Shown: one piece after another, positions 35,815-53,703 of the stretch
Layout: each line of letters starts with the position of its first letter
How positions within the stretch are numbered: the stretch's first letter is position 1
Assembly (NCBI GenBank): GCA_947166565.1
Contig: CAMVEL010000001.1
Coordinates: forward strand, 1-64,000
Direction of reading: 5' to 3'
From: an uncultured Erysipelotrichaceae bacterium
GTDB lineage: Bacteria > Bacillota_I > Bacilli_A > RFN20 > CAG-826
Length of the DNA stretch: 64,000 bases
The notes under the pieces: model-generated
What the model saw: the letters and a program-made list of their open reading frames with translations, nothing else
What the model was told of the DNA's origin: nothing
Database searches by the model: none
Program-made: the position numbers and the translations under genes

Positions 35815-38085
35815 CTACTTTTTGGGTAGGTAAATATCGACATAATCGAAATTGGTCGCCGAGCCTTTGGAAATGACCTTGATTATGTTATCGCCTTGGT
35901 AAAGCTTGATTTCCCCCATTTTGACTTCGCCCCATTCATGGAATTTCCTAGCGGGGTTTTTCGCGGCGGGATTATATCTAATCGGCGGGAAATCGATGTC
36001 CTTCCCGTTGATTTTGAGGGAAAACATACCCGCGGGATCACGGGAATTGATCTGCTTGGCCAGCCCGTAGGCGATATAAGCGGTCGTATCCTCTTCGACT
36101 TGGATAGAGAAACCGAATCCCCTTCCTTCGCCGCCATCTAGGTTACCGACGTATTTCCCGCCCGAAGCTGTATCGTCGGTAGATATCTTTGGGCTCGAGA
36201 TGAGGGAACAGCTCTCCGCTTCATAACGAGTGGCCTCATATTCAGTAGGGAAAACGGCCTCTTCAAGGAAAGGGGCATGCAAATCACGGCCATCGCCATA
36301 GATTGAGGAGAGGGAAGTCAACCTATCGCCATACCAATCCGCGGCGAAGCGGAAGGCGTCTTTCTCCGATTTTACCGAGGAGGTCTCATCGCGAAGCTCG
36401 CCCGCGGTTCCTGAATAGGATCCCCCAAGATGGTGCCATCTTTGGAAATTCTCCGCGTATTCTTCTTGGTATTCGCTTGAGAAGGCGTACATGGCGTTAA
36501 GCATATCGCCGAAGGAATCGCTTTCGATGAGCTGATTCCATTTGGCTTTGATCATCTCCTTGAAGAAAGCCTTTCCGGTAAGGAGGTTGAGCCAGGGATT
36601 TCCTGAGCCGAAAGCATAATAGCCCTTCCCGTCTTCGCAGTAGCCCGCCCTATTTCCAATCGCGGAATCGTAATCCCAAGGAGCCTCGAAACGGAGGCGA
36701 TGGTCTTTGTTTTCCCCCAAATCGAAATCCATATAGAAGGAGCTCCAGCCGATATCCGGGTCGCAGGTGATTTCCTGGAGGATATAGGTATCGACTAGGG
36801 AATGGAGATCGATATACCTTCCGATATGGGAACGGGGATCGGAAGCCTCGGTCCTAACCAAGGTCGTCCCATCGGCACTCAAATCGTAATATTCCCCGTT
36901 ATAGGCGGCCTTATAGGCGATGCGATAGATGTTTTCCAAATAGGTGGAAGCGAATTCCCTTTGGGAATCGGCGATGATATCGCTTTTGATGGTATAACCA
37001 TATTGCGAGGTCCATACGCTTCTTCCGCTTGGGCCCTGCAAGGCGGCCCCATTGTTATAGTTGATGGTGAAGGTTGGGTCTCCATCGGGTCCTTCCTCGG
37101 TGTAATAGCCATCGTATTCGACGAGATAACCGATCCCGTTATCGATTTGGTCGTCTTCCGGTTCGGTGATCTCGACTCTCCCTGTTCCGGTTTGCTGTTG
37201 CTCAACAAGGAGATAGACACCCCAATACTCCCCGTTGATGCTGACTTTGACGGGGGTGAAGTCCGAGACGTAATAACCATCGCTTCCAAGGATTCTCTTT
37301 CCTAAATAGAAGGCGCTCGCGTTGCGCAACAAGGAACTGTCCTTGACGTCGGCGAGAAGAACCCATGATTTGGCCTTTAAATTGTTATTCAAACCAAGCA
37401 TGCCCTGCTTTTTGTTGAATTTGATACGCAGGGGCTTCTTATCGTAATTCGCGGTGTAATTGCCTCTAACCTTCACCCCGGCGTCTATATCGGTAAGGAC
37501 ATAGCTTTCATCGCATCCAGAGACGCTGACCTTGCAGGAGGTGTAATCCATTTTGTTAAGGCGGTCCGGAATGGTGACGAAATCATTATTTCCGTCTTCG
37601 GAGACAATGGAAATCGTCGGCATTTCCGCGGTGACTTGATGTTCGTAATCGTAGTTCCCTTCCTTCACGAGGGGGACTTCAACCGCGGGGAATTCGAGGT
37701 TTAGGGGTTTGATTTCTTCGTTTGAGCTTTCCTCTATGGAAGATTCTTCCGAGGATTCTTCAATTGAGGATTCCGTTAAGCTCTCTTCGCTTGGAAGAGA
37801 AGACTCTTCCTCCCTGGACGATTCCTCTTCCGTGGAGGATTCCTCGATTTCGCTCGAAGAGGAGGAAGGAATTATCGGGCTAATGGTAGAGGAGGATTCG
37901 CTTTCCGAGCTCTCGGAAGAAGGAGTGGAGATAGTTTCGCTTCCGGAAGTCTCTTGGCTTTCCGCCGTCTCGCTACTGGTTTCGGTCTTGCTGGTAGATG
38001 AACTATTGCTATTTGGGTAACCCCCGCAGGAAAAAAGTAAGGAAGATAGCATTAAGGAAGACAATACAACCGGTTTTCTTTTCAT
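35815..38085 (-). CDS. CotH-kinase-family lipoprotein with Ser/Glu-rich linker and C-terminal CBM-like domain
   Basis: Lipobox LLFSCGG; VRGNYTANYDKKPLRIKFNKKQ, LLADVKDSSLLRNASAF, FEAPWDYDSAIG; C-terminal YEAESC... carbohydrate-binding-like. Confidence 0.85.
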   Translation of the reverse strand: MKRKPVVLSSLMLSSLLFSCGGYPNSNSSSTSKTETSSETAESQETSGSETISTPSSESSESESSSTISPIIPSSSSSEIEESSTEEESSREEESSLPSEESLTESSIEESSEESSIEESSNEEIKPLNLEFPAVEVPLVKEGNYDYEHQVTAEMPTISIVSEDGNNDFVTIPDRLNKMDYTSCKVSVSGCDESYVLTDIDAGVKVRGNYTANYDKKPLRIKFNKKQGMLGLNNNLKAKSWVLLADVKDSSLLRNASAFYLGKRILGSDGYYVSDFTPVKVSINGEYWGVYLLVEQQQTGTGRVEITEPEDDQIDNGIGYLVEYDGYYTEEGPDGDPTFTINYNNGAALQGPSGRSVWTSQYGYTIKSDIIADSQREFASTYLENIYRIAYKAAYNGEYYDLSADGTTLVRTEASDPRSHIGRYIDLHSLVDTYILQEITCDPDIGWSSFYMDFDLGENKDHRLRFEAPWDYDSAIGNRAGYCEDGKGYYAFGSGNPWLNLLTGKAFFKEMIKAKWNQLIESDSFGDMLNAMYAFSSEYQEEYAENFQRWHHLGGSYSGTAGELRDETSSVKSEKDAFRFAADWYGDRLTSLSSIYGDGRDLHAPFLEEAVFPTEYEATRYEAESCSLISSPKISTDDTASGGKYVGNLDGGEGRGFGFSIQVEEDTTAYIAYGLAKQINSRDPAGMFSLKINGKDIDFPPIRYNPAAKNPARKFHEWGEVKMGEIKLYQGDNIIKVISKGSATNFDYVDIYLPKK

Positions 38086-38216: not shown

Positions 38217-38858
38217 TTAGGCTGCTTGTCTTCCACCAAGAGGCTCGATGATGTTAATTTTGAACTCGGTTGCCTCGATGTGGTATTCCTCGACGGCTTT
38301 GTTGATGATTGAGAGGAGTTCCGCGGCGTTTTCCCTATAATCCTTGACGATTGTTAGGGCATGGCCTTGATCGGCGTAGAGACGGAGCTCATCGTTTAGT
38401 TTCTTAACGAGAAGGTCTTGGATTTTCCCGGCGTAAGGATAGAAAGCCACGGGGTCATTTACTTTGTAGGTCAAGGTGTAATGGACTTTGTAAAGAGCGT
38501 CCGGTCCGTTGTTGATGAAGAGCTTATCGGAAGAGAATTCGGCTTCCTTGGAGCTGATGATTGCCCCGACATGATCGCGGAAGGGAACGAGGAAATATCT
38601 TTGGTTCGGCTCGTTGAGGACCTTGTGGATCTGCCCTCCCCTGACGATGATGGTCGTCGCTTCTGGGGTGGATCTAGTGACCCTACGGATTAGATAGACG
38701 ACGATTATCAAGAGGACGATGGCCCCCAAAACGATATAAAGGATTGGGCTTTGAAAGATTTTCTTCAAGGATTCCAAAGATTGTCCCCCCGAGCCGCCGG
38801 AAGATCCACCTTCACTGGTGCTTGCTACGGAAGAGAGAATATTAAGTATTAAGTTCAT
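38217..38858 (-). CDS. SPFH/band-7-like membrane protein
   Basis: N-terminal TM; TIIVRGGQIHKVLNEPNQRYFLVPFRDHVGAIISSKEAEFSSDKLFINNGPDALYKVHYTLTYKVNDP. Confidence 0.55.
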   Translation of the reverse strand: MNLILNILSSVASTSEGGSSGGSGGQSLESLKKIFQSPILYIVLGAIVLLIIVVYLIRRVTRSTPEATTIIVRGGQIHKVLNEPNQRYFLVPFRDHVGAIISSKEAEFSSDKLFINNGPDALYKVHYTLTYKVNDPVAFYPYAGKIQDLLVKKLNDELRLYADQGHALTIVKDYRENAAELLSIINKAVEEYHIEATEFKINIIEPLGGRQAA

Positions 38859-38885: not shown

Positions 38886-38915
38886 CTGACCGAAACATAG
38901 TTTAGCGCGTAAAAT
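38886..38915 (+). promoter_or_regulatory. Candidate promoter for the repeat array
   Basis: CTGACC (38886-38891), 18-bp spacer, TAAAAT (38910-38915). Confidence 0.35.
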
Positions 38916-38934
38916 GTAAGAATTAAAGCCACCT

Positions 38935-39524
38935 AAAGAAAATGGGCACCTACCGAGGGCTCCAATCGCCCAGTTCGATGTCCTGCCATTCACAGGTGTA
39001 CCTTTTGATGGGCCTGGCCTGATCTTTGCCACGCTTTTCTGACGCGTCCAACGCAGAGGCCGCAAAGAGGACGGCTTTCGCTGGCTGACTCCAATATACA
39101 CCAAGGAACAGACGTTTCAATACCCATTGGAAAAGAAAATGGGCACCTACCGAGGGCTCCAATCGCCCAGTTCGATGTCCTACCATTCACAGGTGTACCT
39201 TTTTATGGGCCCCGTCTGATCTTTGCCACGTTTTTCTGACGCGTCCAGCCCCAAGAGGCAAGTGAATTGCTTTCGCTGGCTGATTCCAATATACGCTCGC
39301 GGGAGAGGATTGCAATACCCCTTGAAAAAGAAAATGGGCACCTACCGAGGGCTCCAATCGCCCAGTTCGATGTCCTGCCATTCACAGGTGTACCTTTTGA
39401 TGGGCCTGGCCTGATCTTTGCCACGCTTTTCTAACGCGTCCAGCCTAAGAGGCCGCAAAGAGGACGGCTTTCGCTGGCTGACTCCAATATACACCGGACG
39501 AGCCTTTTTGCAATACCCCCCCCG
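38935..39524 (+). repeat. Three tandem ~196-bp repeat units, candidate structured non-coding RNA
   Basis: Each unit begins AAAGAAAATGGGCACCTACCGAGGGCTCCAATCGCCCAGTTCGATGTCCT (from 38935, 39132, 39327); period 197 then 195; a partial fourth start (GAAAAGAAAACGGG) at 39524. Confidence 0.95.
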
Positions 39525-39542
39525 AAAAGAAAACGGGTTTTT
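39520..39542 (+). terminator. Possible intrinsic terminator at array end
   Basis: CCCG-aaaagaaaa-CGGG followed by TTTTTT; short stem, and an alternative A-rich/T-rich pairing exists. Confidence 0.45.
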
Positions 39543-39614
39543 TCACTTTTCTCAAAAAAATGAGCCGATTTTCGCTTTTCACCACTATTAGTAAGTAGAG
39601 GAACTTTTTTTCAG

Positions 39615-40118
39615 ATGGGGCATGATATCAACGTCAAAAACATCGAGGAGGCCGTAAAGAGCCTCAACTACTACGCGAAAAAGGACCGTGGGCATTTCGA
39701 CGTCCGGTTCAGGAACGTCCACCTTTGCAGGCTGAACAAGATCGCGGACACGACCCTATTTAGGAAAAATGACCTCTATGTTGATGCCTCTACTCTCTAT
39801 GAATTGATGCAACCAATCGGAAGACATAGATCTCACAACTCTCATGGCCTCGATCCTTTGCAAATCATCAATTGCCTCAACAATCTTAATAAACCCGTAT
39901 CAATTATCCGTTCCCATCTTGACAGGATTTGTGTCTTTACCAGTTATTTGGAGGATGAGAATAACAGCATGATATTGGTTATCGATAGATGTTCTAATTT
40001 ACCAAACAACTTAACTGCCATGGTCAATAAACTCATCACCATATATCCAAAGAGGAAGGTTCGGGAGTATTTGGGTAGATGCAAAAAGGAAGATATTCTG
40101 TATTTGGGTCTGCCGTAG
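39615..40118 (+). CDS. Orphan 167-aa protein, possibly MuF-C/BECR-nuclease-like
   Basis: ELMQPIGRHRSHNSHGLDPLQIINCLNNLNKPVSIIRSH...NSMILVIDR...ITIYPKRKVREYLGRCKKEDILYLG recalls the MuF C-terminal toxin-domain pattern (recognised by eye). Composition is AT-richer than flanks. Confidence 0.5.
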   Translation: MGHDINVKNIEEAVKSLNYYAKKDRGHFDVRFRNVHLCRLNKIADTTLFRKNDLYVDASTLYELMQPIGRHRSHNSHGLDPLQIINCLNNLNKPVSIIRSHLDRICVFTSYLEDENNSMILVIDRCSNLPNNLTAMVNKLITIYPKRKVREYLGRCKKEDILYLGLP

Positions 40119-52404: not shown

Positions 52405-53703
52405 ATGGGATTACTAAAACTAGCTGGTGATGCCATCCGCGCTGCTCATACAGTAGAGAAGATTGAGTACGCACCCCGTGACGCCGCGAGTAACGATATT
52501 ATCGTTTACCGTCATGAAATCGAGAATTTTGGCAAAGCCGCAAGACTTCAGGTCGCCCCTAACCAGGTAGCGATCTTCGTCAATGACGGCGAAACCAAGG
52601 TTTGGGCGCCTGGCCTCCACAAGATGGACGATAGCAAGGTCTCCTCGTCTCCATTCATGCAGAAGATCCTCAACGTCGTCAGCGACGGTGAGCCCATCTA
52701 TTCTACCAAGATCTATTTCATCAACCTCGTCACGTTGATGGATATGAAGTTTGGCACCGCCGACATGATTCCGGTCAGGGATCCAGAATTCGGTATCAGG
52801 GTCCGTGTCCGCGCCGCTGGTCTATTCGGCGCCCACATCAACAATGATGACATCGATGGCGTTGAAGTCCTCAAGTTCTTCAATAAGGTCAACGGAACCC
52901 GCGAAAGGTTCACCAAAGCCGATTTGGAAGCCTACCTCCGTGGAAAGATTCAGGAATTCCTCGCGAACCTCCTTGGTGAAGTCATCGGCGAGAAGAGGAT
53001 CTGCACCCTTGATTTGGCGAGCCATTACACCGAGGTCTCTAAGGCCCTCCAAGAGAGGATGACCCCCGAATTCGATAAATTCGGCATCAGAATCGACAAT
53101 TTCTCCGTCGTCAACATCAAGTTGCTCGACTCCGACCTCGACGTTATCAACGAAGCGATGGTCAAACGTGCCACCACGGCGATCGAAGCCCAGGGCCAAG
53201 CCGCCGCGATGACCGTCGAATCCGAAGCCCTCGCCGCGAAGCGTGCACGCGAAGGCTACACCTATCAACAGGAAGCCGGATTCGGTGTTATGAAGGAAGC
53301 CGCCGGAAATACTGCCACGATGGGATCCATGATGGGTCTTGGCGTTGGCTTTGGTATGGGTGGCGCCATGGGTGGAGCCATGGGTCAAATGGCTAACCAG
53401 ACCATGGGCACCATGGGTGCGGCCCCAGGCGGAGCGGCCCCAGCTGGCGGAGCGGCCCCTGCCGCTGCCCCAGAAGGCAAGGCCTGCCCAGATTGTGGCA
53501 CCATCGTTCCTCCAGGCGCGAAGTTCTGCCCCAATTGCGGACGCAAGGCCGGCGAATTCTGCCCGAAGTGCGGCGCTGAACTAGCCCCAGGCGCGAAGTT
53601 CTGCCCCAATTGCGGCGAAAAACTCACCAAAGCCTGCCCAGATTGCGGCACCGAGCTAGCCCCGGGCGCGAAGTTCTGCCCGAATTGCGGCAAGAAGCTA
53701 TAA
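52405..53703 (+). CDS. SPFH-domain protein with C-terminal zinc ribbons (YdjI-like)
   Basis: RLQVAPNQVAIFVNDGETKVWAPGLHKM, GIRVRVRAAGLFGAHINN, then ACPDCGTIVPPGAKFCPNCG and two more tandem zinc ribbons. Confidence 0.85.
   Translation: MGLLKLAGDAIRAAHTVEKIEYAPRDAASNDIIVYRHEIENFGKAARLQVAPNQVAIFVNDGETKVWAPGLHKMDDSKVSSSPFMQKILNVVSDGEPIYSTKIYFINLVTLMDMKFGTADMIPVRDPEFGIRVRVRAAGLFGAHINNDDIDGVEVLKFFNKVNGTRERFTKADLEAYLRGKIQEFLANLLGEVIGEKRICTLDLASHYTEVSKALQERMTPEFDKFGIRIDNFSVVNIKLLDSDLDVINEAMVKRATTAIEAQGQAAAMTVESEALAAKRAREGYTYQQEAGFGVMKEAAGNTATMGSMMGLGVGFGMGGAMGGAMGQMANQTMGTMGAAPGGAAPAGGAAPAAAPEGKACPDCGTIVPPGAKFCPNCGRKAGEFCPKCGAELAPGAKFCPNCGEKLTKACPDCGTELAPGAKFCPNCGKKL

Follow-up and report, generated by a model that had tools for sequence, protein, structure and literature searches.

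A Putative Type III-Like RNA-Protein Toxin-Antitoxin Module With a Predicted MuF_C-Family Toxin and Opposite-Strand Small RNA Genes in an Uncultured Erysipelotrichaceae Bacterium

Results

Tandem Units and a Stand-Alone ORF

The DNA analyzed here (the window) is a stretch of 64,000 nucleotides from an uncultured Erysipelotrichaceae bacterium (GenBank assembly GCA_947166565.1, contig CAMVEL010000001.1). Three tandem units of approximately 195 bp each are present at positions 38935–39519, with a spacing of 197 and 195 nt, and a stand-alone ORF of 167 aa lies 3' of this array on the plus strand (39615–40118), both as described in an earlier reading made from the sequence alone (the sequence-only reading). 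The three units are 84–93% identical over 136 nt, and TRF reports the array with a period of 195, 2.9 copies and a score of 853. The features of the locus, with matches to two RNA models (R1, the long form of the RNA; R2, the short form), are as follows:

38935–39087, minus strand: putative sRNA unit 1 (R1 at 38929–39100, minus, E 7e-42; R2 at 38937–38984, minus; covariation); a 5' domain, then a toxin-specific 3' domain (38937–38984); U-tract 38935–38942
39093–39120, minus strand: predicted promoter of unit 1, TTGAAA-16-TATATT
39131–39282, minus strand: putative sRNA unit 2 (R1 at 39126–39295, minus, E 8e-40; R2); 3' domain 39134–39181; U-tract 39131–39139
39288–39315, minus strand: predicted promoter of unit 2, TTGCAA-16-TATATT
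39325–39480, minus strand: putative sRNA unit 3 (R1 at 39321–39493, minus, E 1e-44; R2); 3' domain 39329–39376; U-tract 39325–39334
39486–39513, minus strand: predicted promoter of unit 3, TTGCAA-16-TATATT
39524–39614, plus strand: ORF leader, opening with the start of a fourth unit in degenerate, remnant form (39524–39537, repeat family D3)
39615–40118, plus strand: predicted BECR-fold RNase toxin, 167 aa, with MuF_C at residues 72–163 (Pfam, alignment A7, AlphaFold, Foldseek)

The start of unit 1 was placed by inference approximately 7 nt past the -10 box. Each unit looks like an autonomous minus-strand sRNA gene that comprises a promoter, an RNA of approximately 150 nt and a U-tract.

The window's own genome has three loci with unit DNA, of which two are interrupted within the repeats by contig ends, and a related genome (G025) has another three; all of these adjoin homologues of the ORF. 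Solo units were found in another genome (G013). Purifying selection acts on the ORF (dN 0.045, dS 0.28, dN/dS approximately 0.16 against the G025 orthologue). As units and homologous ORFs recur side by side elsewhere, neither of the two is a chance feature.

Genes for a Band_7/SPFH protein (38217–38858) and a CotH-kinase lipoprotein (35815–38085), both on the minus strand, flank the module and are not conserved partners. Elsewhere in the window (53512–53691), a tandem 75-nt coding repeat of 2.4 copies, with CPxCG zinc-ribbon-like units by eye, looks ordinary.

Strand of the RNA

A promoter scan found exactly one minus-strand promoter per window unit, TTGMAA-16-TATATT (39120–39093, 39315–39288, and 39513–39486), and the hypervariable stretch of the unit is exactly the promoter spacer. 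The mean best promoter score is 10.3, against 7.4 for shuffled sequences, and several loci with the short form carry a 12/12 match (TTGACA-16-TATAAT) located 5 nt ahead of the stem. In the outer stem (P1, 16 distinct arm pairs), one non-standard pair is seen on the minus strand against 14 on the plus strand. The stem cells of the long form hold 91 G-U against 4 A-C combinations on the minus strand, a ratio that is flipped on the plus strand. Because of these pair statistics, the minus-strand promoters of the individual units and, as a third indicator, the stem ending at the U-tract, we assign the RNA to the strand opposite to the ORF. We consider this sequence evidence decisive for a minus-strand RNA; a plus-strand reading of the array is ruled out by the strand statistics and the promoters.

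The plus-strand signals proposed in the sequence-only reading did not hold up. Its promoter ahead of the array, at 38886, is only a 9/12 match (CTGACC-18-TAAAAT), where 1.8 chance matches are expected in the region. Between the array and the ORF no terminator-like site was found on either strand, and the hairpin that had been taken for one (CCCG-AAAAGAAAA-CGGG followed by T6) is a 4-bp stem that belongs to the remnant unit start at 39524–39537.

Structure and Forms of the RNA

Folding of a single unit was no better than that of shuffles on both strands, and the structure is visible by covariation only. Among 24 long-form units, 27 pairs were found with 97.7% of cells paired, and 18 of these pairs show two-sided (compensated) changes. 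The covariation score is 0.569, compared to 0.229 ± 0.016 for shuffled and 0.04–0.09 for slid alignments.

The minimal form of the RNA, encoded opposite to the ORF, is approximately 45 nt long (e.g., GAGAAUCCAAGGUGGCAAUUGGAGCCCCGUUCGGUUCUC-AUUUUUU). It has a stem closing around a small hairpin, followed by the U-tract. Reading the flanks of relatives identified the window unit as the long form of the same RNA, which adds a 5' domain of approximately 105 nt that is common to the paralogues. Most loci carry the short form, with a near-perfect promoter, and in most the U-tract overlaps the stop codon of the ORF. The window has three units and most relatives have one or two, a tandem arrangement shared with type III systems.

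No Rfam covariance model, including that of the abiF motif (RF03085), matched at gathering score (best E 3.5); MH_s10, for example, reached 14.7 bits against a cutoff of 81. A known Rfam RNA is thereby ruled out as an identity of the unit. A search of viral contigs with the unit DNA pattern yielded just two chance-like matches, within phage genes.

The ORF Encodes a Predicted BECR-Fold RNase

The protein had been called an orphan, but it passes the Pfam cutoff for MuF_C (PF18819; E 5.7e-8, 33.2 bits against a gathering cutoff of 27.6) and has a predicted fold like that of phage MuF_C proteins. Three of five homologues tested also match PF18819 (38.5, 30.1, and 34.4 bits); of the other two paralogues, one scores under the cutoff and one has no match. 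The proposal that it is not a ToxN protein stands, with no ToxN match in Pfam or the PDB and MuF_C found instead. In an alignment of 28 homologues (A7), H74 and H77 are invariant and T142 is near-invariant. The AlphaFold model (pLDDT 90.1) shows a helix (residues 81–92) followed by four strands (94–147), with H74 and H77 directly ahead of the core helix; T142 lies in core strand four. The protein consists of a conserved N-terminal half and a predicted MuF_C/BECR catalytic half.

The structural comparison suggested in the sequence-only reading gave a divided result. Foldseek matched the protein to MuF_C proteins of phages (E 3.5e-5 to 3e-4, probability 1.00), but a fold search of the PDB with two models, from alignments of 9 and 28 sequences, gave no significant match, known BECR structures included. 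A profile search of PDB sequences likewise gave nothing significant. MuF-C is described as a phage BECR-fold endoRNase with an active site of histidine and threonine or serine (Iyer et al., PMC5512222). Since no solved structure matches, the catalytic assignment draws on the Pfam family and on this literature, and we predict the ORF to encode a BECR-fold RNase toxin.

NCBIfam, PHROGs and PADLOC gave no match, and a protein search of phages, plasmids and viral contigs found none. At class level nothing close was found outside the family, just two remote MuF_C proteins with no convincing RNA alongside.

Association With the RNA and Asymmetric Loss

A profile search identified homologues of the ORF in 31 of 282 genomes of the order, in 11 genera. 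These are rumen and gut MAGs, and the named ones are Erysipelotrichaceae, Bacillales or Bacilli. Of the 31 full-length ORFs fetched, 30 were found with the R1 and R2 models to have the RNA beside them, in every case on the opposite strand, a count that includes one locus (L100) accepted on weak matches and by eye; at the 31st (L099) the contig ends 71 nt past the ORF. The two genes are convergent in most loci, divergent in the window's type, and both arrangements occur in L093 and L096. The RNA precedes the ORF in the window and G025, and in most relatives it is downstream.

Examining co-occurrence in related genomes, as had been suggested, showed a strong association. Of the 282 genomes, 27 have both RNA and ORF, 14 the RNA only, 4 the ORF only and 237 neither (Fisher p 2e-23). 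Two of the four ORF-only genomes have an ORF cut by a contig end, one has a truncated ORF and one a remote 365-aa frame. Five broken ORFs are accompanied by intact RNA (L105, L107, L108, L109, and L113). One RNA copy of the window's own genome stands alone at the ssrA 3' end, a site at which another MAG has the toxin. The question raised earlier, whether repeats and ORF occur apart, therefore has an asymmetric answer: RNA without an intact toxin occurs, and an intact toxin without RNA was not seen at any locus where this could be judged. This is the pattern expected if the RNA is an antitoxin. No constant protein neighbor or adjacent protein antitoxin (type II) was found, with any one neighbor present at no more than 6 of 40 loci.

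Co-Diversification of RNA and Toxin

Paralogues were compared in three groups (loci) in two genomes (G000 and G025), and for the distances between RNA domains only units physically linked to a toxin were counted. Toxin paralogues are 65–100% identical in their N-terminal halves and 33–41% in their C-terminal halves. The 3' domain of the RNA differs by 2.8% within and 35.7% between toxin groups, with distributions that do not overlap. The 5' domain differs by 12.2% within and 11.6% between groups, and thus appears mixed or homogenized across loci. Over 22 loci, the distance between RNA 3' domains tracks that between toxin C-terminal halves when the N-terminal half is controlled for (partial Mantel r 0.38, 0 of 2000 permutations as high). 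The simplest reading of these comparisons is that the 3' domain of the RNA contacts the catalytic half of the toxin.

Surroundings of the Module and a Second Protein Family

In one genome, an RNA unit is lodged by a different, basic ORF of 119 aa (G183:C52; L147, 2955–3314), whose leader is closely similar to that of the MuF_C toxin of the same genome. This 119-aa protein family occurs in 43 of 226 genomes and has no Pfam match. It has its own structured element (AAAAAAAGATGATT...AATCATC, with inner hairpins), beginning at the stop codon. In six further copies inspected, this stem-and-A-run element was present at the stop codon in four (L191, L194, L195, and L196) and in part in a fifth (L192). 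At least one further toxin-like family of these bacteria, unrelated to the first, seems to follow the same plan.

A hotspot exists at the ssrA (tmRNA) 3' end (L046/L113 of G006:C10, L055 of RUI474, L036, and L164 of G000:C7). Together with duplicated tmRNA 3' ends and the RNA-toxin module it holds genes named by eye as DinJ-like, Fic and AbiEii-like, and makes up a small defense or toxin-antitoxin island. In another lineage (L086, L090, L092, L095, and L108) the module lies just 3' of a tRNA gene pair, which suggests a tRNA-linked insertion. A different A-run element (AAAAAAAGAAGCTATGGACAC.. and AAAAAAAAGAGGCTAGAGATTC..), possibly a third type of sRNA, follows the short RNAs at 150–250 nt 3' of the ORF in L088 and L091. 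Genes for XRE-type helix-turn-helix proteins with C-terminal effector domains adjoin the RNA in L035, L084, L085, and L148; in L148 the effector domain is ThiF and a HepT/MNT pair is adjacent.

Discussion

We interpret the locus as a type III-like RNA-protein toxin-antitoxin module with a non-ToxN toxin and an independently transcribed RNA, and estimate the probability of this reading at approximately 0.72. An RNA-plus-protein module had also been proposed in the sequence-only reading; the co-occurrence and the predicted RNase agree with that part of it, and the plus-strand array transcript, the terminator and the classic type III order do not survive. The sequences show the RNA structure, its strand and promoters, its association with the ORF, the asymmetric loss and the co-diversification; beyond this, we infer RNase activity, toxicity, direct binding and a phage or stress trigger. 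The ORF would yield a small endoribonuclease toxin that cuts RNA once free, and each unit would act as an sRNA gene of its own on the opposite strand. As every unit has its own sigma-70 promoter and U-tract, synthesis of the RNA would be constitutive and yield an excess. Binding and blocking of the cognate toxin would fall to the 3' hairpin domain, which in the short form of approximately 45 nt is the entire RNA; the 5' domain of the long form, approximately 105 nt, perhaps touches the shared N-terminal half. If transcription in the host came to a halt, as in phage infection or when the island is lost, decay of the RNA would leave the stable toxin free to cut RNA.

An opposite-strand RNA could also act as the antisense RNA of a type I system, pairing with the toxin mRNA and stopping its translation. 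Most short-form loci are convergent with a 3' overlap of a few bases, a layout that is usual for Gram-positive type I systems (PMC8167048), and some toxin leaders seem to conceal the ribosome site. Moreover, predicted duplexes with the 5' UTR have z-scores between -2 and -4 at four loci, among them the window (-2.3), L029 (-3.0), and L036 (-3.9). However, complementarity is inconsistent, with a mean z of -0.51 over 18 loci; the overlap consists of the U-tract only, and in the window and G025 the RNA is upstream and divergent. The strongly covarying structure suits RNA-protein recognition, the 3' domain tracks the C-terminal half of the toxin protein, and the toxin is not a small hydrophobic peptide. 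We therefore consider an antisense mechanism unlikely overall, and less so at the four loci with z below -2.

To the same extent, we doubt that the nuclease uses the RNA as a cofactor or guide, as in an RNA-dependent effector, rather than being inhibited by it. Constant association and co-diversification would suit any tight RNA-protein complex, but the unit has no variable guide segment, and tandem copies would raise the dose of an antitoxin. The asymmetry also speaks for an antitoxin, since RNAs survive alone and beside broken ORFs and the converse, an intact ORF without RNA, was never seen.

A classic type III system on the plus strand, in which the toxin would cut an array transcript ending at a terminator into units, fits the order of array and ORF in the window. 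It is very improbable given the strand statistics, the minus-strand promoter of each unit, the lack of a terminator and the downstream position of the RNA in most relatives. Equally little speaks for a selfish or structural repeat (REP- or attC-like) with a hitch-hiking ORF: solo copies and ssrA- or tRNA-adjacent islands exist and units break assemblies, but there are one to few copies per genome, nearly always by one gene family and always on one strand with a promoter and a U-tract.

Within the toxin-antitoxin reading, a broader proposal is that these modules follow a distinct plan, in which polymorphic RNase toxins are each guarded by tandem autonomous sRNA genes on the opposite strand, with the RNA 3' domain and the catalytic half of the toxin exchanged together as a matched set (a counterpart, made of RNA, to immunity proteins), and that this plan is seemingly used by at least one unrelated toxin-like family as well; we give this proposal an even chance. 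To our knowledge, proven RNA antitoxins that act on protein comprise few toxin types and one genetic layout. Searches presuppose that layout, with a repeat array, a terminator and a ToxN-like ORF. If our reading is correct, a family that breaks it would imply that current screens miss RNA-neutralized toxins, and the RNA would be the first inhibitor of this kind for the phage MuF_C RNase domain. As the 119-aa family has its own element at the stop codon, the layout may be general and overlooked. The module would also offer an RNA-protein pair with readable specificity, testable by swapping a single domain of approximately 45 nt.

Our searches of an open-access library of papers turned up no account of a MuF_C protein with an RNA partner, and the closest systems are related to the module in different ways. 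The defining features of type III systems are a repeat array that lies upstream of the toxin gene and is transcribed with it, a terminator, and a toxin of the ToxN kind (PMC5086642; PMC8167048). Here, the RNA lies on the opposite strand with its own promoters instead of forming a bicistronic operon with one promoter, and both a terminator and a toxin related to ToxN, CptN or TenpN are lacking. ToxIN, CptIN, and TenpIN (PMC5086642; PMC4627078) likewise combine an endoRNase toxin with a structured, often tandemly repeated RNA, whose specificity follows the toxin. Unlike these, the putative module has a promoter and U-tract per unit, an RNA usually 3' of the toxin, a MuF_C/BECR-like toxin, and units of approximately 45 or 150 nt that would not require processing. 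The best reading is thus that the module resembles type III systems in its presumed action and departs from their defining operon layout.

In AbiF-RCd22 of C. difficile (PMC12373285), similarly, a small structured RNA neutralizes a toxic protein by direct binding, in trans, and without toxin-dependent processing. However, RCd22 lies upstream of abiF and is co-transcribed with it, AbiF belongs to the Abi_2 proteins and is structurally linked to Cas13, and the RNA belongs to Rfam RF03085, which was not found here. AvcID (PMC10511110) shares an sRNA antitoxin that inhibits a protein toxin and activation by transcription shut-off, but its toxin is a deoxycytidylate deaminase and its RNA is unrelated. 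The MuF_C/PBECR domains of phage MuF and polyvalent proteins (PMC5512222; PMC5576092) belong to the Pfam family of the toxin's catalytic half, whereas the protein described here is a solo chromosomal one with its own N-terminal half and a putative RNA partner. Judged by sequence, the module appears to differ from classic type III systems and AbiF-RCd22 in its layout, and from these and AvcID in both its toxin and its RNA.
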